Part shown: in pieces, positions 5,940 through 27,295 of the stretch | Position numbering within the stretch: the first letter of the stretch is position 1 | Layout of the letters: every line of letters begins with the position of its first letter | Source: Candidatus Manganitrophus noduliformans | GTDB taxonomy: Bacteria > Nitrospirota > Nitrospiria > SBBL01 > Manganitrophaceae | Assembly: GCF_012184425.1 (NCBI RefSeq) | Contig: NZ_VTOW01000001.1 | Span: 1,736,001-1,800,000 of the forward strand | Length of the DNA: 64,000 nt | Reading direction: 5' to 3' | Position numbers and translations under genes: made by a program | The notes under the pieces: generated by a model | What the model saw: the letters and a program-made list of their open reading frames with translations, nothing else | The model's database searches: none | What the model was told of the DNA's origin: nothing

Positions 5940-6356
5940 TCAGGGAGGTGGGATCGGATCTCTTCCGGCTTCGGAAGAAGAGGAGGCGGAGGTGCTGTTT
6001 TGCTCGGACCGCAATACGCGGGTTTCGAGACTGTAGCGCCCTTTCAACTCATCCCCGATCGTCCCCTCCCAGAGTGGCACCCCCAGGATGTAGGCGGCGC
6101 GGCCGAGCATATGCGCCGCGACCGGCGCGGTCAGAAAAAAGAAGACGATCACCAACAGGGCGCGGGTCGTGACGCCGAGCTCAGCGAAGTAGACCGCCAC
6201 CCCCAGGAGCATCAAGGCGATGCCGAGGGTCGCCCCCTTGGTCGCCGCCTGCATCCGGGAGTAGAGGTCGGGGAAGCGGAAAATCCCGACCGCCGCCAAA
6301 AGGAGGAAGCCGGCGCCGGCGTACATCAAGATCCAGGCGATTCCTTCACTCATCAT
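5940..6356 (-). CDS. mrpG: Na+/H+ antiporter subunit MrpG
   Basis: A 138-residue protein with three transmembrane helices and the MnhG/PhaG hallmark FRFPDLYSRMQAATKGATLG near the N-terminus. The start is set at the double ATG at 6353/6356, which overlaps the end of mrpF. The longer open frame upstream is out of frame with mrpF and has no membrane character. The C-terminal 45 residues are hydrophilic and Ser-rich, a longer tail than usual. It is the last gene of the seven-gene Mrp operon and a small membrane subunit of the proton-coupled cation antiporter. Confidence 0.9.
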   Translation of the reverse strand: MMSEGIAWILMYAGAGFLLLAAVGIFRFPDLYSRMQAATKGATLGIALMLLGVAVYFAELGVTTRALLVIVFFFLTAPVAAHMLGRAAYILGVPLWEGTIGDELKGRYSLETRVLRSEQNSTSASSSSEAGRDPIPPP

Positions 6357-14397: not shown

Positions 14398-17300
14398 GCG
14401 GCGCTCCTTCGCTTCAGCCCCCAGGCCAAGGCGGCCCCGGCGAGCAGGGCGCCCGCCCCCAAAAGGGGGGCCGTTTTCTTCAATCGCACGGGGAGCCGGT
14501 GTTTTCCCCCCCCGTTCTCGCTCGGCGTCTCGGACGGCGCGGGGCGCATCGCCATCTGAAGGACTTCCGCCAGGTGGAGCGCCCGCCGGTTCGTCGTCTG
14601 GGCGATCTGCTCCCGGCAGCTGAAGCCGTCGGAGAGGATCAGCGTCTCCGCGTCGGCTTCGCGGACGGCGGGGAGGAGGACCCGCTCCCCCGAGGCGATT
14701 GAGACATCATAATGCGCCTTCTCGAAGCCGAACGCCCCGGCCATCCCGCAGCAGCCGGAATCGAGAATTTCGAAATCGAGGCCGAGCTTGGCGAGGATCT
14801 TCTCCTCATCGTTCAGCTTCATGATCGCCTTGTGGTGGCAGTGCCCGTGGACCACCGCCTTGCGCGCAAGCCGCGGCGGCTGGAAATGATCGACTTTCTT
14901 TTCGAGAAATTCGCTCAACATGAACGTCTGGCGGCTGAGGCGGAGCGCGTCTTCGTCACGCGGGAAGAGGTTCACCAACTCGTCGCGAAAGGCGGCGACG
15001 CAGCTCGGCTCCAGGCCGACCACGGGAATGCCCGCCTCGATTTCAGGTTGCAGCGCCGCCAGCGTCTGCCGCCAGCGTTTTTTGGCCCGATCGAGAAAGC
15101 CGAAATCGTACAGCGGCCGTCCGCAGCAGAGGATTCGCCGCGGAATCTCGACCCGATAGCCGAGCCCTTCCAGCACCTCGACCGCCGCCTTGGCCGTATC
15201 GGGATAAAAGAAATTATTGAAGGTATCCGGCCAGAGGAGAACACGAGGGCCCGCGGCGTTTTTGGCCTCCCGACGGCGGAACCAATCTCGAAACGTCTCG
15301 GTGGCAAAAGCGGGGATCCGGCGCTCCGGGGCGATATCCCCGACCGCTTTCGCCAGACCGCTCAGCCAGGGTGTTTGCATGACGAAGTTCGCCAGCCGCG
15401 GCGCCGTCGAGGCGAGCCGCGACCACCCGTAGATCAGCCCCATCGAATAGGCGGAGCGCGGACGGAGTCTCCCCTTGTAGTAGTGGGCGCGGAACTCGGC
15501 CTTGTAGGTGGCGATATCGACATTGACCGGGCAGTCCCCCTTGCACCCTTTGCAGGCGAGGCAGAGATCGAGCGTCTCCTCCACATGATCGTCCCGCCAT
15601 CCTTCCGTGATCGGGTCTCCCTGCAGCATCTCGAAGAGGGCGTGGGCCCGCCCCCGGGTGGTATCTTTTTCCTCCCGGGTCACCATATAGCTGGGGCACA
15701 TCGTCCCCCCGCTCTCCCGCCGGCACTTGCCGACCCCGACGCAGCGGAGGGTCGCGTGGGCGAAGCTTCCATCTTCGGGATATTGAAAATAGGTCTCAAC
15801 CGCCGGCGGGTTGTAGCCGGTTCCGAGCCGAAGGTTCTCGGTGATCAAATCGGGCTCGATCACCTTTCCGGGATTCATCTTCCACGAGGGGTCCCAGATC
15901 GATTTGAACTCCCGAAACGCCGCCGTCAGCTCCGGGCCGTACATTTTCTGAAGCAGCTCCCCGCGCGCCTGTCCGTCGCCGTGCTCCCCGGAGAAAGAGC
16001 CGCCGTACCGGAGGACGGTCTCTGCCGCCTCGTCGAGGAAAGCGCGGTAGCGGTCGATCCCCTCCTTCGTGATCAGATCGAAATCGATCCGGGTGTGGAC
16101 GCACGCCTGTCCGAAGTGGCCGTAGAGGGCGCACTGATATCCGTGCCGGTCCAGCAGCCGGCGCAGGTCGCGAAGATAGTCGCCGAGCCGCTCCGGATGG
16201 ACCGCCGAGTCCTCCCAGCCGGGCCAGGAGTCTTTCTCGCCGGGGACAAACGCCGTCGCGCCGAGCCCCGACTCGCGGATTTCCCAAATCCGCTCCTGAT
16301 CTTCCGGATCGGCATACAGATGCATGGCGGGGGGACGTTCCCCCTTCCGGAGCGCCTCCATCATCTCCCGCCCCCGCGCGTTCGCCTCTTTTTGATCCTC
16401 GCCGCCGAACTCGACGAGGAGCCATCCCCCCCCCTCGGGGAGGAGATCGACATTTTCCGCATGAAGGTGTTTCTTTCTGATATAGCCGACCAGACGGTCG
16501 TCGATCCCCTCCAGGCCGACCGGCCCGTGGGCCATCACCTCCGTGATATGGTCCCCCGCGGTGAAAACGTCGGGGTAACCGAGGACGGCGAGGGCCCGCT
16601 TGGGGGGACTCGGGACGAGCTTAACCACCGCCTCCAGGACGGTCACGCAGGTCCCCTCCGAGCCGACAAGCGCGCGGGCGACGTCGAAGCCGTTCTCCGG
16701 AAGGAGCTGCTCCAGGCTGTACCCCGACACGCGCCGCGGAATCCGCGGAAAGCGCTCTCGGATCAGACCGGCATGGCGGTCCCGCAGCGATTTCAGCTTG
16801 GCGTAAATTTCTCCCCGCCGCCCCCCCTCCTGAATGATTCTCTGCAGCGCATCGTCGCCGGTTTTTCCCGCCTGCATCCGAAGGCCGTCGTGGGTGAGGA
16901 TTTCCAAAGTCTCGATATTGTCGGCGGTCCGCCCCGCCATCACCGAGTGGATGCCGCAGGAGTTGTTGCCGATCATCCCCCCCAGCGTGCACCACCGGTG
17001 TGTCGCCGGGTCGGGGCCGAAGGTGAGATCGAATCGCTCGGCGGCGCTCCGAAGGTTGTCGAGGACGACCCCCGGCTCGACGCGGGCCCGTTTCCGATCG
17101 GGGTCGATCTCGATGATCCGGTTCATATACTTGCTGAAGTCGATCACCACCGCGACATTGCAGGTCTGCCCGGCAAGACTGGTGCCGGCTCCGCGGGGGA
17201 GGATCGGCGCGCCATATCGGCGGCAGATCTCGATCGTCTCGATCACATCCTCGGCCGTTTTTGGAATGACCACTCCGATCGGCACCTGCCGGTAGTTCGA

Positions 17301-22021: not shown

Positions 22022-23203
22022 ATGTCAAAAATGCCACCCAACAGTTTAGTCGTTCACTACCACGAGATTGCCCTCAAAGGGGATAACCGTCCGCTCTTTG
22101 TCCGCCAATTGATCGAAAACATTCAACAGGCCACCTTGCGCCTCGGCGTTCAAAAAATCGTCGCGCCGCGGGGAAGAATTATCCTTTTCCTGGAGGAGGG
22201 GGCGAATTGGACGGAGATCGTCGGACGGCTTAAATCTGTTTTTGGGATCGCCAACTATTCACCCGCCTGGCGGCGGTCGACCGGTTACGAAGCGATTGAA
22301 GAGACCATCGCCGCGCTGATTCCCGAAAAAGCCTTTGCGAGCTTTCGAATGTCGGCGCGGCGCGGAGACAAAAGCTACCCGATCCGGTCGCAGGAGTTGA
22401 ATGAGCGACTGGGCCGATTTGTAGAAGAGAAGAGCGGCGCGCGGGTCGATCTGGAAAATCCGGAGCGGACCTTTCACGTCGAAATCCTTCCGAGGGAGGC
22501 GTTGATCTATACGGAGAAACATCGCGGACCCGGCGGGCTTCCGGTCGGCGTCTCCGGCCCGGTCGCCGCGTTGATCTCCGGCGGGATCGACTCTCCCGTC
22601 GCCTCCTACCAGATGATGAAGCGGGGATGCACCGTCTCCTTCATCCACTTTCATAGTTACCCCTTCGTCACCAAGGCTTCTTGGGAGAAGGCGGAGGAAC
22701 TGGTGGAGCATCTCACGGCGTATCAGTTCCACTCGCGGCTTTATGCCGTTCCCTTCGGAGAGGTCCAGCGCCAGATCGTCACGAGCGCCCCCCCGGCCCT
22801 TCGGGTCGTCCTCTACCGCCGGTTCATGGTTCGGATCGCCCAGGAATTGGCGCGGCGGGAGGGGGCCAAAGCGCTCTTGACCGGGGAGAGCGTGGGGCAG
22901 GTCGCCTCGCAGACGCTGGAGAATCTCGCCGTGATTGAGGAAGTGGCCGCGCTTCCGATCCTCCGCCCCCTGATCGGCTTCAACAAAGATGAGATTATTA
23001 CCGTGGCGCAGGAGATCGGAACCTATCCGATTTCGATTCAGCCCGATCAAGACTGCTGCCGTCTCTTCATCCCGCCGCACCCCGCCGTCCGCGCCCGCCT
23101 GGAGGCGATCCATCAAGCCGAGGCGAAGCTCGACATCGACGGGCTGGTCAAGATGGGGGTGGAAGGGGTGGTGATGCGGGAGTTTCGTTTTGGAGAAGGA
23201 TAG
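22022..23203 (+). CDS. thiI: tRNA 4-thiouridine sulfurtransferase ThiI
   Basis: A 393-residue protein. The N-terminal ferredoxin-like and THUMP domains (about 1-165) bind tRNA. The adenylation domain holds the PP-loop ALISGGIDSPVASYQMMKRG (about 183-202), and a DQDCCRLFIPPHPA segment follows near residue 345. It lacks the C-terminal rhodanese domain of the E. coli enzyme and has the length of the shorter form. It makes s4U8 in tRNA with sulfur from a cysteine desulfurase; the desulfurase gene at 53.8 kb is a possible donor. The 3' end is partly repeated at 26699-26878, beyond a cassette-bearing insertion. Confidence 0.95.
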   Translation: MSKMPPNSLVVHYHEIALKGDNRPLFVRQLIENIQQATLRLGVQKIVAPRGRIILFLEEGANWTEIVGRLKSVFGIANYSPAWRRSTGYEAIEETIAALIPEKAFASFRMSARRGDKSYPIRSQELNERLGRFVEEKSGARVDLENPERTFHVEILPREALIYTEKHRGPGGLPVGVSGPVAALISGGIDSPVASYQMMKRGCTVSFIHFHSYPFVTKASWEKAEELVEHLTAYQFHSRLYAVPFGEVQRQIVTSAPPALRVVLYRRFMVRIAQELARREGAKALLTGESVGQVASQTLENLAVIEEVAALPILRPLIGFNKDEIITVAQEIGTYPISIQPDQDCCRLFIPPHPAVRARLEAIHQAEAKLDIDGLVKMGVEGVVMREFRFGEG

Positions 23204-23523
23204 CCACGCTTCGCTCTTTTAAGGGGCGGTGGAACCCGACTCCCTCCACTTCGAGCCTGGATCATCTTCCCCCGATGAGCCGACTGAAATAGGTTTGTCC
23301 CTATGATATTGCTTTTAGGGTTCCCCTTATGATATATCCCATCCGTTTATCATTTTAAAACATAAACTTTTCCGTCTAACCCGGTTCATGACTTCATGGG
23401 GTTAAACCTTCTCAACAGGTTATGAGCTGTTCTGCAATGAAAGGCAGAAAAACTTCTGTAATTAAAGGCGGAAGAGATTCTGTCTAATATAATTTGGGCG
23501 AGGACATAGATGGAGAATTAAAG
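23204..23523. other. Left edge of the AT-richer cassette block, no gene seen
   Basis: 320 bases between the thiI stop and the first cassette gene. Base composition shifts to AT-rich within about 100 bases of thiI. A short inverted repeat (23374-23407, GTCTAAC...GTTAAAC) resembles the outer ends of an attC site but is too short to be one. I see no attI site, integrase or open frame of quality here. Confidence 0.5.
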
Positions 23524-24186
23524 ATGAATATTCGAAGTAAAGTAAAGTCCGCGAGTATGGCAGTAATATTGTTACTGTTGTTCACAGGATGTGCGTCATT
23601 TTCTAGAAATCAGCTACCAAATGCGGCAAATCTTCTCCAGCTTAGTGAAAATAATAGTAAACCAACCGCATCGTATTCTTTTTCTTCTGGGATTGACCTT
23701 TTTGGGAAGCAAGAACACCAAGAAAATGTGCGCAAAAAGCTAGAAGACGAGTTTATCTCTGTGTTCAGGGAATCTGGTTACTTTGCCTCGTTGACTCCCG
23801 GAGGACAAGCTGAAATGAATATAGAAGTCCGTCTGGTCAACTCCGGAACACCTGCCGCAATGATTCCAGCCATGATTACAGGTTTCAGTCTTTACACTAT
23901 CCCATCATGGGCGACAGATCACTACACCGTTACGGCGAAGGTGACAACACAGGATGGAAAAGAGCATATATACGAGCTTACGGATGCGATGACAACAGTT
24001 CAGTGGCTTCCGATGATTCTGGTCTTTCCATTTCAGAACATGGTCAACGTTTCTAAGCAAGTACGACAAAATATCTGGAAAAACCTGATCCTTAAGATGC
24101 AGAAAGACGGTGTTCTGTCACAGAACGTGCCTGTTGGACAAACGGATCATCTCGTCATTCAATTTGAGTGGTCTTTCCACGGTTAG
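23524..24186 (+). CDS. Predicted lipoprotein, cassette gene
   Basis: A 220-residue protein with a lipoprotein signal (VILLLLFTGCAS; lipidated Cys at about residue 22), so probably anchored on the periplasmic face of a membrane. The mature part is mixed alpha/beta with a hydrophobic stretch (SGTPAAMIPAMITGFSLYTI). I do not recognise the family with certainty. The start at 23524 has GGAG eight bases upstream. Codon use is markedly more AT-rich than flanking genes. It is the first of four plus-strand genes separated by attC-like sites, which suggests acquisition as a mobile cassette. Confidence 0.7.
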   Translation: MNIRSKVKSASMAVILLLLFTGCASFSRNQLPNAANLLQLSENNSKPTASYSFSSGIDLFGKQEHQENVRKKLEDEFISVFRESGYFASLTPGGQAEMNIEVRLVNSGTPAAMIPAMITGFSLYTIPSWATDHYTVTAKVTTQDGKEHIYELTDAMTTVQWLPMILVFPFQNMVNVSKQVRQNIWKNLILKMQKDGVLSQNVPVGQTDHLVIQFEWSFHG

Positions 24187-24235
24187 GAACAAAATGAGGG
24201 ACACATCCCTATTTACTGTTGGTATGATCTTCCAA

Positions 24236-24307
24236 GCCCAACCGCTAAAGAGCCCGCATTATTTTGGTGAGGGTCGTTTCAGCGGCGGCTCAGCTTTTTC
24301 GTTAGGC
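24236..24307 (+). other. attC-like integron recombination site 1
   Basis: A 72-base imperfect palindrome bounded by GCCCAAC (R'', 24236-24242) and GTTAGGC (R', 24301-24307), fitting the RYYYAAC / GTTRRRY consensus. Inner arms GCTAAAGAGCC and GGCTCAGC pair with unpaired bases on one side, as expected for attC extrahelical bases. It sits 50 bases after the lipoprotein stop and 38 bases before the DUF4236 start, the usual position for a cassette boundary. Confidence 0.7.
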
Positions 24308-24344
24308 TTGTTCGAGGACTTTCAACAGAGTCGGGAGGAACAGT

Positions 24345-24866
24345 ATGGGGCTCCGTTTTCGAAGGTCAGTAAAGCTCGCCCCCGGTATCCGAATGAACTT
24401 CAGCGGCAGTGGCGTAAGCTGGACTCTTGGCTCTAGAGGCGCGTCTATTGGTATTGGGAAGCGAGGCACATACCTTAACTCCGGTATTCCCGGAACAGGA
24501 TTCCACGCCCGGGAGCGTATAGGAGGTTCGCGTGCGGGCAGTCGCTCAAGTGCGTCATCCTACTCAAGTATGTCTGTCACTATCGGAGTAACAGATGATG
24601 GAACGGTGTATTTCAGGGATGCAGATGGAAACCCTCTTGCAGAACATCTGATCAGTGCAGCAAAAAAACAACAAGGCGACGCAATACGAGATCTTATTCA
24701 AAAGAAATGTGATGAGATAAATGCACAAATCGAAGCACTCGGGGAAATTCATGTCGATACTCCGAACCCCAATGTAAAGCCGCAATATCAACCTCAAGAG
24801 TTTCCAGAATCCTCTCCCGCAAAGCCGGTTCCAAAGAAAGCTGGGCTATCGGCATGCTCTTTCTAA
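24345..24866 (+). CDS. DUF4236 protein, N-terminal part (frameshifted gene)
   Basis: A 173-residue open frame. It begins with the DUF4236 motif GLRFRRSVKLAPGIRMNFSG, followed by VSWTLGSRGASIGIGKRGTY and a Ser-rich linker. DUF4236 proteins usually continue beyond this length. The frame stops at 24866, but the +1 frame is open from 24778 and reads into the next entry, with charged helical sequence (LSKREKIERENQERVRQF) that fits a continuation. The break probably lies near the A-rich run at 24833-24840. Whether it is a real mutation, a programmed shift or a base-calling error cannot be told here. Confidence 0.7.
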   Translation: MGLRFRRSVKLAPGIRMNFSGSGVSWTLGSRGASIGIGKRGTYLNSGIPGTGFHARERIGGSRAGSRSSASSYSSMSVTIGVTDDGTVYFRDADGNPLAEHLISAAKKQQGDAIRDLIQKKCDEINAQIEALGEIHVDTPNPNVKPQYQPQEFPESSPAKPVPKKAGLSACSF

Positions 24867-24900
24867 ACGCGAAAAGATAGAAAGAGAAAACCAAGAAAGA

Positions 24901-25527
24901 GTGCGTCAGTTCGAGGAAGACCTTGAAAATTGGCGAGCGGCCAAACGCGAGTTTGATGAAGCCGAGGAACGTCGCAAGGATGTAATCGAACGAGGCATCT
25001 ACTCCAATGTGGAACTGATGAAAGACTTTCTGGAAGAGAATCTACAGAGCATTGTTTGGCCGCGCGAGACAATTGTATCAACGGAGATTCTTGATGACGG
25101 AAAAAGAGTGTTCGTCGATGTCGATCTTCCGGAACTAGAAGATATGCCGAGGAAAACAGCTTCGGCTCCGCAGCGAGGCTATAAGCTGTCCGTAAAGGAA
25201 ATGTCAGCTACGCAGATTCAACGACTGTACATGCGTCATGTGCATGGCATTGGATTCAGGATTATTGGAGAGACATTTAGTGCTTTACCCAACGCACAGG
25301 AATTGGTGCTCTCCGCATATTCGCAACGCCCGGATCGAGCAACTGGCCATGTAACGGATGAGTATCTTTATTCGGTCCGGGTAGACCGGGACTCTTGGTC
25401 TCATATAAACTTTGACAATTTACAGAACTTAGATATTGTTGAGGTCCTTGCGCAGTTTGATCTGAAGAGAAGCATGACAAAGACCGGTATCTTCAAACCC
25501 GTTGAACCCTTTGGTCCGAATGGATAG
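24901..25527 (+). CDS. C-terminal continuation of the frameshifted DUF4236 gene
   Basis: A 208-residue open frame from a GTG at 24901. It starts inside a charged helix (FEEDLENWRAAKREFDEAEE) rather than at a natural N-terminus and has no ribosome site. The open frame extends upstream to 24778 and overlaps the preceding DUF4236 fragment in another frame. The C-terminal part (LPNAQELVLSAYSQR...DEYLYSVRVDRDSW) looks like a compact alpha/beta domain with no motif I recognise. Best read as the second half of one broken cassette gene spanning 24345-25527. Confidence 0.6.
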   Translation: MRQFEEDLENWRAAKREFDEAEERRKDVIERGIYSNVELMKDFLEENLQSIVWPRETIVSTEILDDGKRVFVDVDLPELEDMPRKTASAPQRGYKLSVKEMSATQIQRLYMRHVHGIGFRIIGETFSALPNAQELVLSAYSQRPDRATGHVTDEYLYSVRVDRDSWSHINFDNLQNLDIVEVLAQFDLKRSMTKTGIFKPVEPFGPNG

Positions 25528-25539
25528 AAAAACGAACAA

Positions 25540-25597
25540 GCCTAACACGGTGCTACACGCGACCGGCTACGCCGGCGCGTGAGCTTGGTCATTGGGC
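25540..25597 (+). other. attC-like integron recombination site 2
   Basis: A 58-base site with R'' GCCTAAC (25540-25546) and R' ATTGGGC (25591-25597; first base departs from GTTRRRY). The inner arms GCTACACGCGACCGGC and GCCGGCGCGTGAGC pair fully except for two unpaired A residues on the 5' arm, with a three-base TAC loop. This is the compact structure of many chromosomal attC sites. It separates the DUF4236 cassette from the next gene. Confidence 0.8.
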
Positions 25598-25603
25598 AGC
25601 CAA

Positions 25604-26092
25604 ATGAAGACGGTCCTAGTTATCGGGCTCTTTTCTCTAGTGCTCGGTAGTGCTGCGAGTGCCCAGGTGCCTGTGGTCGAGCAATTCTGCTCGGGAGGAT
25701 GGGGCTTTCCTACTAACTCGTGGGCTCAGATTCACGCTGCTCTCGGTGAACCCCTCCGCGAAGACACCCAGACATTTCCCAACCCTCATCTCTCAGGTAG
25801 CCACATCACCAAACGGTCTGCGCAGTTTGCAGGCGGACGCGCCACAGTACTCATCGTCCCAGGTTCGCCCGAACGGCTGCTCCTACAAGAACTCGTGGTC
25901 GAAACGTCAACGGTTGCCCTGGTATCTGGACTTCGGGTCGGTCGCCCCCTTGCAGAATTTCAGCGTGTACTCGGAAAGGAAACCGACACCCACAACAACC
26001 GCTTTTCGTACCAGTGCGAATCAGATGCATTTGAACTCGAAGTACAAGATGGCATTGTGTCACGGGTCACATGGACCTTCTACACTGATTAG
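25604..26092 (+). CDS. Secreted hypothetical protein, cassette gene
   Basis: A 162-residue precursor with a clear Sec signal (MKTVLVIGLFSLVLGSAASAQ). The mature domain has two Cys (EQFCSGGWG and FSYQCESD) that could form a disulfide. Its pattern of an N-terminal LGEPLREDTQTFPN turn and repeated strands resembles small periplasmic proteins of unknown function. It starts just six bases after attC-like site 2 and ends 13 bases before site 3, which is typical compact cassette packing. No ribosome site is obvious. Family not recognised. Confidence 0.7.
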   Translation: MKTVLVIGLFSLVLGSAASAQVPVVEQFCSGGWGFPTNSWAQIHAALGEPLREDTQTFPNPHLSGSHITKRSAQFAGGRATVLIVPGSPERLLLQELVVETSTVALVSGLRVGRPLAEFQRVLGKETDTHNNRFSYQCESDAFELEVQDGIVSRVTWTFYTD

Positions 26093-26104
26093 CCAGTGCC
26101 CGCT

Positions 26105-26206
26105 GCACAACAATACGCTCGAGCCGACCGCTGCCAGCGCGCTTCTCTTTCTGGCGGTTCCCTCGTCACTACGCTCCGAGGCGGCGGCTCGGCGCGAGCG
26201 TTGGGA
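26105..26206 (+). other. attC-like integron recombination site 3
   Basis: A 102-base imperfect palindrome from GCACAAC (26105-26111) to GTTGGGA (26200-26206). Left arm CGCTCGAGCCGACCGC pairs with GGCGGCTCGGCGCGAGCG on the right, leaving an unpaired A in the same position as site 2. The outer boxes each depart from consensus by one base. It lies between the secreted-protein gene and the next lipoprotein gene. Confidence 0.6.
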
Positions 26207-26209
26207 CTT

Positions 26210-26641
26210 ATGAGAATTCGAACAATCTTACTAGCGTTGTTCATAGGGATCGTGGCGGGTTGCGATTCCTGGTTTCATCGTCGCATTGACATAAGCGGTC
26301 CAGAAGCTGCGGTAGCGCTGCCAAAGGACAGTGACAGTGCGGTGCTTGCAGCCATCCGGGAGTACGCAGGCCGAAAAGACATTTCTTGTAAAGATACGGG
26401 GCAGCTTCCCATTGAGTGCTGGCGGCAGCCCATTCGCATCTGGGCGGTTACATACGGCGATACAATCGTTGTCTGTTACACCGCAATGGGCATACCACTC
26501 GAAAGCAGCAAGTTTGAGCGACATATGGATGAACTCGAGAGTCTAATACGCGAAAGAACCGGAAATGCGGCAACAGTGGTGAAGGCTCAGTGTCCGGCAC
26601 CACCAATGTTCTTGAATACGAAGGATCTAAGGGGACATTGA
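26210..26641 (+). CDS. Small predicted lipoprotein, cassette gene
   Basis: A 143-residue protein that begins four bases after attC-like site 3. The N-terminus is a lipoprotein signal (MRIRTILLALFIGIVAGCDS, Cys18). The mature part has four further Cys, at least two of which flank a short hydrophilic loop (DISCKDTGQLPIECWRQP). An earlier in-frame start would translate through attC and is rejected. Family unknown. No attC site follows, so this cassette end is either lost or is the array boundary. Confidence 0.65.
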   Translation: MRIRTILLALFIGIVAGCDSWFHRRIDISGPEAAVALPKDSDSAVLAAIREYAGRKDISCKDTGQLPIECWRQPIRIWAVTYGDTIVVCYTAMGIPLESSKFERHMDELESLIRERTGNAATVVKAQCPAPPMFLNTKDLRGH

Positions 26642-26657
26642 AGCATGAACTGTTTGG

Positions 26658-26680
26658 AAAATGGGGACAGTCCCCATTTT
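26658..26680. terminator. Perfect short hairpin after last cassette gene
   Basis: AAAATGGGGA and TCCCCATTTT form a 10-base perfect stem with a CAG loop, 17 bases after the last cassette stop. The T-run at its 3' end would allow factor-independent termination in either direction. Confidence 0.5.
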
Positions 26681-26698
26681 CTCATTCCCATTTTCTAG

Positions 26699-26878
26699 TC
26701 TCGCCGTGATTCAGGAAGTGGCCGCGCTTCCGATCCTCCGCCGCACCCCGCCGTCCGCGCCCGCCTGGAGGCGATCCATCAAGCCGAGGCGAAGCCCGAC
26801 ATCGACGCTCTCATCAAGCTCGGCGTAGAGGGGGTTGTGGTCCGAGAGTTCCGTTTTCAGGGCGAAATCGGGCGATAA
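26699..26878 (+). pseudogene. Decayed second copy of the thiI 3' end
   Basis: This segment repeats the last part of thiI in the same orientation. Bases 26699-26742 match 22924-22967 with one difference. The copy then jumps 109 bases, and 26743-26794 match 23077-23128 exactly. The final 84 bases are a diverged but recognisable ThiI C-terminus (IDALIKLGVEGVVVREFRF versus IDGLVKMGVEGVVMREFRF) that ends in its own TAA. The 109-base deletion breaks the frame and there is no start. It marks the right edge of the inserted cassette block. Confidence 0.9.
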
Positions 26879-27159
26879 CCTTTCAAGTTCCTCCCTTCCA
26901 TCGTCTCCGAAGTCTCCGAATTTTTCCTTTGGACCGCTCCTTCCATACCCCAATAAAGTAACATATTTTTTACGGCAACTGTTATGCCTAGACGTTATCA
27001 TTTAGAAAAATATTAATTAAAACATGGACTTATGTCATACCGATTGAATAAAAAGTGGCATAATTAGATGAGAATTGGATGAGAAGCAGATCTGGAAGAT
27101 CGTTGATCCTTTGCCATAAGAGTTGACTGAATGAGTGCGCGCAAGTGTTTTGAAATTGA

Positions 27160-27189
27160 AGATTCCCCGCAGCAAGCTGCGGGGAATCT
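27160..27189. repeat. REP-like perfect palindrome 1
   Basis: A 13-base perfect stem (AGATTCCCCGCAG / CTGCGGGGAATCT) around a CAAG loop. It resembles repetitive extragenic palindromes of many bacterial genomes. Lacking a following T-run, it is not a classical terminator. Confidence 0.65.
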
Positions 27190-27224
27190 TCGACCCGAAA
27201 GGATGGAAAGACTCTATTTGTATT

Positions 27225-27269
27225 CGCGCGTCTAACCTTCGCAGCAAGCTGCGAGGAATGCGACGCGCG
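27225..27269. repeat. REP-like nested palindrome 2
   Basis: Outer arms GCGCGTC (27226-27232) and GACGCGC (27262-27268) enclose an inner hairpin TCGCAGCAAGCTGCGA. The inner core is shared with palindrome 1, 50 bases upstream. Its 3' end lies 26 bases before the start of the next gene, so it would fold in that mRNA leader or promoter. Confidence 0.55.
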
Positions 27270-27295
27270 TGCGTGTTCAAATTATTGGAGAAACA

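Follow-up and report, generated by a model that had tools for sequence, protein, structure and literature searches.

The array at positions 23524-26641 of the DNA analysed here (the window: 64,000 nt of the genome of the manganese-oxidising bacterium Candidatus Manganitrophus noduliformans, G000:C1:1736001-1800000) is very probably an integron minus its integrase gene. Blocks of an attI site and its cassettes would persist at several loci, served by an integron integrase (IntI) from outside, with homologous recombination as a second route. This reading draws on attC sites, a leader shared between arrays, intI stubs, the lack of an intact intI gene, and the exact transfer of a cassette unit between genomes. 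The window genome (G000; 5.17 Mb in 22 contigs) was compared with its five congeners (G001 to G005) in a set of six Candidatus Manganitrophus genomes. G005 is a single contig and 98% complete; the assembly of G001 is 72% complete. A first-pass annotation, made by a model from the letters alone, had placed the array and described its layout correctly. The features of the array are as follows.

23291-23493, plus strand: attI-like leader (leader profile R3; alignment to copies at four other loci)
23524-24186, plus strand: cassette 1 gene, 220-residue lipoprotein-like protein (open reading frame, ORF)
24236-24307, plus strand: site 1, degenerate attC without the L'' arm (18-nt deletion); no match to covariance models R1 or R2, homology to intact attC
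24345-25527, plus strand: cassette 2 gene, DUF4236 protein, frameshifted (Pfam DUF4236, E 1.2e-20; three-frame reading)
25540-25597, plus strand: site 2, attC, R'' GCCTAAC, R' ATTGGGC (R1 and R2 matches, bottom-strand fold)
25604-26092, plus strand: cassette 3 gene, 162-residue secreted-type protein (ORF)
26105-26206, plus strand: site 3, canonical attC, R'' GCACAAC, R' GTTGGGA (R1 and R2 matches, bottom-strand fold)
26210-26641, plus strand: cassette 4 gene, 143-residue lipoprotein-like protein, own attC missing (ORF)

Sites of the attC type were searched for with two covariance models. R1 was built from 20 attC sites, taken from annotated class 1 integrons that plasmids carry, and pairs the R and L boxes; R2 is R1 extended with attC sites found beside intI genes of other Nitrospirota. 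None of the six Manganitrophus genomes was used in training either model (the R1 set holds 0 sites from the genus), and the window was searched unfiltered. A strict regular-expression scan of Nitrospirota integron loci missed most sites and was dropped for the covariance models. With R1, site 3 ranked first in the window (38.5 bits, E 8.9e-7) and was the best match across the whole of G000, and site 2 ranked second (19.1 bits). R2 gave 41.2 bits for site 3 and 29.2 bits for site 2 (E 1e-4), the next match in the window reaching 12.3. Both sites are well above chance, because nothing else in the 64 kb scores more than 12.9 bits, the next-best value with R1. Their bottom strands fold into an attC hairpin with bulged bases (fold z of −3.7 for site 2 and −1.8 for site 3). 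Each has complementary R''/R' boxes with the GTTRRRY crossover, apart from single departures in these boxes, as well as paired L''/L' arms and extrahelical bases on the bottom strand. Both look usable. Rfam at the gathering threshold gave 0 matches in the window.

Site 1 lacks the inner arms that the first-pass annotation had described for all three attC-like sites; it is homologous to attC but degenerate. The covariance-model and folding checks proposed with that annotation, borne out at sites 2 and 3, did not recover it: neither R1 nor R2 matched site 1 in the window, and its fold is no better than that of shuffled sequences (z −0.1). Over 72 nt it is 93% identical to an intact attC of G005 (L128:6609-6697, 34.4 bits), and it is also related to an attC of the window's own genome (L097:16693-16781, with 84.5% identity to 16693-16761) and to one in G002 (L140:24-112). 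Alignment to the intact homologue places an 18-nt deletion that takes out the L'' arm, leaving no paired arms; the direct repeats GCCCAACC and GCCCGACC flank it, and slippage between them could have caused it. By this homology, site 1 is a broken attC. On the 3' side of the last cassette gene, no attC signal was obtained with R2 in 26641-27000.

Integron integrases were searched for using the TIGR02249 profile with its cut-off. In agreement with the first-pass annotation none was found in the window, nor did the rest of G000 or its five congeners yield one. The matches in the genus skip profile positions 180-237, which correspond to the IntI-specific insert, and in G000 the two top-scoring ones pass the NCBIfam cut-offs for XerD and XerC. 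The method detects integrases when they are present, because 91 of 396 Nitrospirota genomes, several of them in the same order, give an IntI over the cut-off. A genome-wide search, also proposed at the first pass, gave further attC sites but no intI: R2 matches are present in all six Manganitrophus genomes, at about seventeen places. A cluster of attC sites lacking integron integrases (CALIN) is defined by at least two attC sites with no intI nearby (Cury et al. 2016; IntegronFinder 2.0, PMC9024848). The original assignment to this class holds, as two attC sites (sites 2 and 3) are matched by independent covariance models, the third is degenerate, and no integron integrase is encoded in the genome. 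The array is not a complete integron; intact intI is absent, and only N-terminal stubs occur, at other loci.

At its left edge, however, the cluster is not the bare set of cassettes that had been described. The ∼200 bp directly before the first cassette, overlooked at the first pass, are common to arrays at several loci. Profile R3, built from eight other copies with those of the thiI locus left out, matched the window at 23291-23492 (83 bits, E 1.5e-24) and the thiI locus of G003 with 49 bits. DNA and profile searches yielded 11 full copies in five of the six genomes (four in G000 including the window, three in G003, two in G005, one each in G004 and G002). These occupy five chromosomal loci: locus M, before a mazG-like gene (G000, G002, G003, G005); locus Z (G000, G003, G005); locus T, at thiI (the window and G003); and one further locus each in G000 and G004. 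Every copy ends ...TTCTGTCTATTTATATG|TTRRRY or a variant of it, with TATG|TTRRRY in most, and the species diverge past the crossover point. At locus M the alignment of G003 and G005 stops at 6148/4724, two bases beyond the crossover at 6146/4722, after which identity is 66-74% under the same aligner, the level of unrelated flanks. In the window, crossover is predicted between 23493 and 23494, AATATAAT|TTGGGC, with a T in place of the usual G before TT. The G004 copy (array G004a) sits within an array, between attC sites. Outside the genus a profile search at class level gave only weak matches, one of them in G011, and plasmids and viral contigs gave none. Pattern matches in a Bacteroidales metagenome-assembled genome (MAG), in Undibacterium and in a MAG labelled "bacterium" were set aside as chance: with R3 the first two were short and weak and the third gave no match. 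From its homology across the genus and its common end at the crossover point, we infer that the leader is a putative working attI.

The leader bears directly on one alternative, in which an integrase from elsewhere dropped the cassettes at a chance genomic G|WT by recombination between attC and a genomic attG site, leaving a bare CALIN with no attI. Insertions of this kind have been described (PMC12444791, PMC12901181), and the absence of intI, the few attC sites and the chromosomal position would all be expected from one. Its left boundary would carry no attI, whereas the window array has the leader at 23291-23493, a 200-bp element that arrays at four other loci also have, in one case beside an intI stub. 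For the window array this origin is very improbable and largely refuted by the leader match; it may apply to leaderless arrays, such as L131 and L129. The window array is not a bare attC cluster, because its left edge is an attI-like leader that recurs in other arrays of the genus, in some of them together with an intI stub.

These stubs are divergent, comprise 15-38 codons and adjoin a leader in four genomes (G000, G003, G004, G005). In G004a an IntI N-terminus lies upstream of the leader and on the opposite strand, as in ordinary integrons (L136 7915-7796, minus strand). It was detected by tblastn with 30 Nitrospirota IntI proteins (E 2.6e-5), reads MKSPLLTHVQPSAPQPKKLLDQVREIIRLKHYSIRTDW and then stops; by blastp it is 64% identical over 28 residues to the IntI of G013, a genome of the same order (E 1.7e-8). 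At locus M, G003 and G005 retain the same intI start with a common break after ∼28 codons (frameshifted in G003), and in G000, where ∼15 intI codons are left, the break point is the same.

Movement of cassettes was assessed by comparing arrays between genomes. A 633-bp cassette, containing a gene for a 173-residue protein and its attC, is 98.4% identical between arrays G001a and G005a at unrelated loci, against a background of about 79% for thiI and its neighbours in the same two genomes. The similarity runs from G|TT, next to attI in G005 and next to an attC in G001, as far as the R' box. A second comparison is that of G003 and G005 at locus M: they have in common the flanks (94%), the leader (98.6%), the intI break and the attI-distal cassettes, while all attI-proximal cassettes differ. 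This is the expected polarity, because new cassettes enter at attI. Both comparisons say that cassettes moved after intI was lost. Were the arrays purely fossil, all cassettes would have been gained before the loss of intI, and differences would reflect decay and differential deletion. Decay is seen in the window (the site 1 deletion, the frameshift, the missing last attC), and strains of Xanthomonas citri pv. citri share a frozen CALIN that lacks intI (PMC12444791). A fossil origin is nevertheless unlikely, in view of a 98.4% identical cassette at non-orthologous loci over a 79% background, with ends at crossover points, and of the differing attI-proximal cassettes that G003 and G005 carry behind the same intI break.

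Whole blocks are exchanged as well, probably by homologous recombination. The locus-M leader of G000 (G000b) is 94% identical to that of G002 and 86% to that of G003, whereas its adjoining flank is 80% identical to G002 and 97% to G003. A similar event is suggested at the thiI locus, where the following features flank the array.

22022-23203, plus strand: thiI (tRNA sulfurtransferase), the host gene to the left of the array (Pfam ThiI, E 5.5e-71; THUMP; ThiI_fer)
26656-26684, no strand assigned: REP-like (repetitive extragenic palindrome) element at the array's right end, in the same place in G003 and G005
26698-26857, plus strand: remnant of the thiI 3' end, shortened internally by a 104-bp deletion, on the ancestral downstream flank (blastn within the window; comparison with five congeners)

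The order thiI, insert, thiI 3' remnant on the ancestral flank is found in the window, G003 and G005 and is absent in G001, where a GGDEF gene directly follows thiI with no insert. The inserts differ: the window has four cassettes, G003 has other small genes in an insert that starts flush at the leader (GTTAGCT...AGCTAAC), and G005 has a gene behind GTTAGGC with no recognisable leader. The G005 gene is, from our own reading, presumably epoxide-hydrolase-like. The duplicated thiI end, which was likewise overlooked at the first pass, suggests homologous recombination with a donor as the route by which the leader reached thiI. It is possible, though rather doubtful, that arrays are exchanged only in this way, as blocks recombining between leaders, flanks and shared cassettes, for example following natural transformation, with no site-specific recombinase now at work. 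Such exchange would account for the duplicated thiI end around the window array and for a G000b leader closer to G002 than to that of its own sister species; it leaves unexplained a single cassette flush at G|TT, attI-adjacent in one case and attC-adjacent in the other, at unrelated loci. Note also that a 125-bp dispersed repeat lies at window 27155-27280, and that copies 96-98% identical to it flank array M in G000 (two), G003 and G005. A second REP-like palindrome lies inside the window array at 24196-24210, and similar or other short palindromic repeats occur in the G003 and G005 arrays.

Takeover of attI/attC recombination by a resident Xer-type recombinase (XerC, XerD or a paralogue) is extremely unlikely. 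XerC and XerD are present in the genome, and the leader end, TTATATGTTAG, may bear a loose resemblance to a Xer half-site. But XerC and XerD lack the IntI-specific insert (profile positions 180-237 are skipped), and the sole extra Xer paralogue is not shared by the genus. This third XerC-like recombinase (L005; G000:C2:349432-350472) is 49% identical to XerC and was found only in G000 within the genus; as it is not genus-wide, it was rejected as a replacement integrase.

An integron that has lost its integrase gene thus remains the preferred reading. The ancestral integron of the genus would have comprised a divergent intI, attI and cassettes. After deletion of intI, the attI-cassette blocks would have persisted and come to lie at several chromosomal loci, the window holding one such block, with an attI docking site (23291-23493) and four captured cassettes behind it. 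IntI recombines double-stranded attI, at G|TT, with the attC of a circular cassette in the form of its folded bottom strand, so that new cassettes enter next to the leader. With no IntI of their own, these genomes must, on this reading, have acquired cassettes through an outside IntI, and we infer an integrase acting in trans, from outside the sequenced genomes, brought for example by a transient plasmid or phage. A second route would be homologous recombination between the attI-array blocks that related strains carry.

Several points weigh against this reading. Four of the six genomes are drafts or in several contigs, and in these an intI on an unassembled plasmid is possible. The leader copies G000f and G003d have no attC detectable with the covariance models close by; copies of this kind, at L163 7012-7219 and L162 9743-9950, are possibly attI sites whose cassettes lost attC. 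The most divergent copies are those of the window and the G003 thiI locus, the window copy being without the crossover G, and no clear sigma-70-type promoter (Pc) was found on the plus strand of the window leader. G001 has attC sites and, in its 72% complete assembly, no clear leader. The attI-proximal differences between G003 and G005 could arise partly from differential loss.

The first-pass annotation had offered the array as a relic or as a remote store for an integrase elsewhere. "Relic" fits, because site 1 is crippled, the crossover G is lost, a cassette gene is frameshifted and the last cassette is without attC; the window array is decaying and probably inert at site 1. A remote store is unsupported within this genome, because no integrase is encoded in G000 or in the five congeners. 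The broader proposal, that the genus keeps several working attI sites per chromosome and no integrase of its own, the sites being filled by a visiting outside integrase, is tentative; we lean somewhat against it.

Of the four annotated genes, all stand as cassettes, although gene 2 is split. Its frameshift near 24838 yields ORFs at 24345-24866 and 24901-25527 and reflects either a pseudogene or a base error in the MAG or its assembly. DUF4236 (Pfam) is the only family assigned in the window cassettes; their proteins gave no matches in PADLOC or NCBIfam, and that of cassette 1 had 0 matches in Pfam, NCBIfam and PADLOC. The cassette 3 gene has no counterpart in the other genomes of the six-genome set and no match among phages or plasmids. 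AbiV, Mrr, AbiTii and PDC-type proteins are among those encoded by cassettes elsewhere in the genus, which would fit the anti-phage functions of integron cassettes. A second type of array in G000 (L131 6250-8513, on G000:C3) carries AbiV HEPN and Mrr-nuclease cassettes and three attC sites, with no leader detected, and a sparse attC cluster in G005 (L129 6999-14154) has AbiTii-like and PDC-type genes near restriction-modification-like genes.

In surveyed genomes, CALINs are roughly as frequent as complete integrons. This genus bears on their origin and on whether they remain functional. It offers a series of shared attI leaders, partly deleted intI genes, step-wise array decay and cassettes that moved between species all the same, making it testable whether an integron survives without its own integrase. 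If the proposal is true, integron function is split: the host holds docking sites and cassettes, and a transient helper the integrase. To our knowledge, integron finders know attI for only a few classes; other CALINs may for that reason hide an unrecognised attI.

No paper on integrons in Manganitrophus was found in the literature searched. In the phylum, two CALINs have been reported with IntegronFinder 2.0, and Ca. Nitrospira inopinata is the source of both (PMC9024848). The Manganitrophus arrays share with CALINs as usually described at least two attC sites, cassette-like genes and no intI nearby; they differ in having an attI-like leader at five loci in five genomes and an intI stub at sister loci. 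Sedentary chromosomal integrons of other Nitrospirota (for example G013, G014 and G011, same order) have the same attC type, and the stub is most like the IntI of G013, but these integrons keep a full-length intI. Delta-attI-type cassettes of mobile integrons (PMC12901181) come close in that they are pieces of attI that lie away from intI and can still recombine; the G004a leader lies between attC sites inside an array. They differ in being short attI fragments of class 1 and 2 integrons, with IntI in cis. The precedent closest to the Manganitrophus case is Xanthomonas, where integrons at ilvD have a lost or truncated intI and seven further loci hold CALINs (PMC12444791). Common to both are an old genus-wide integron, decay of intI, and CALINs dispersed at conserved places. 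Many Xanthomonas strains still have intI at one locus, and arrays appear frozen once it is lost (PMC12444791), whereas in Manganitrophus intI is found in no genome, attI leaders lie at several loci, and cassettes differ between sister species.

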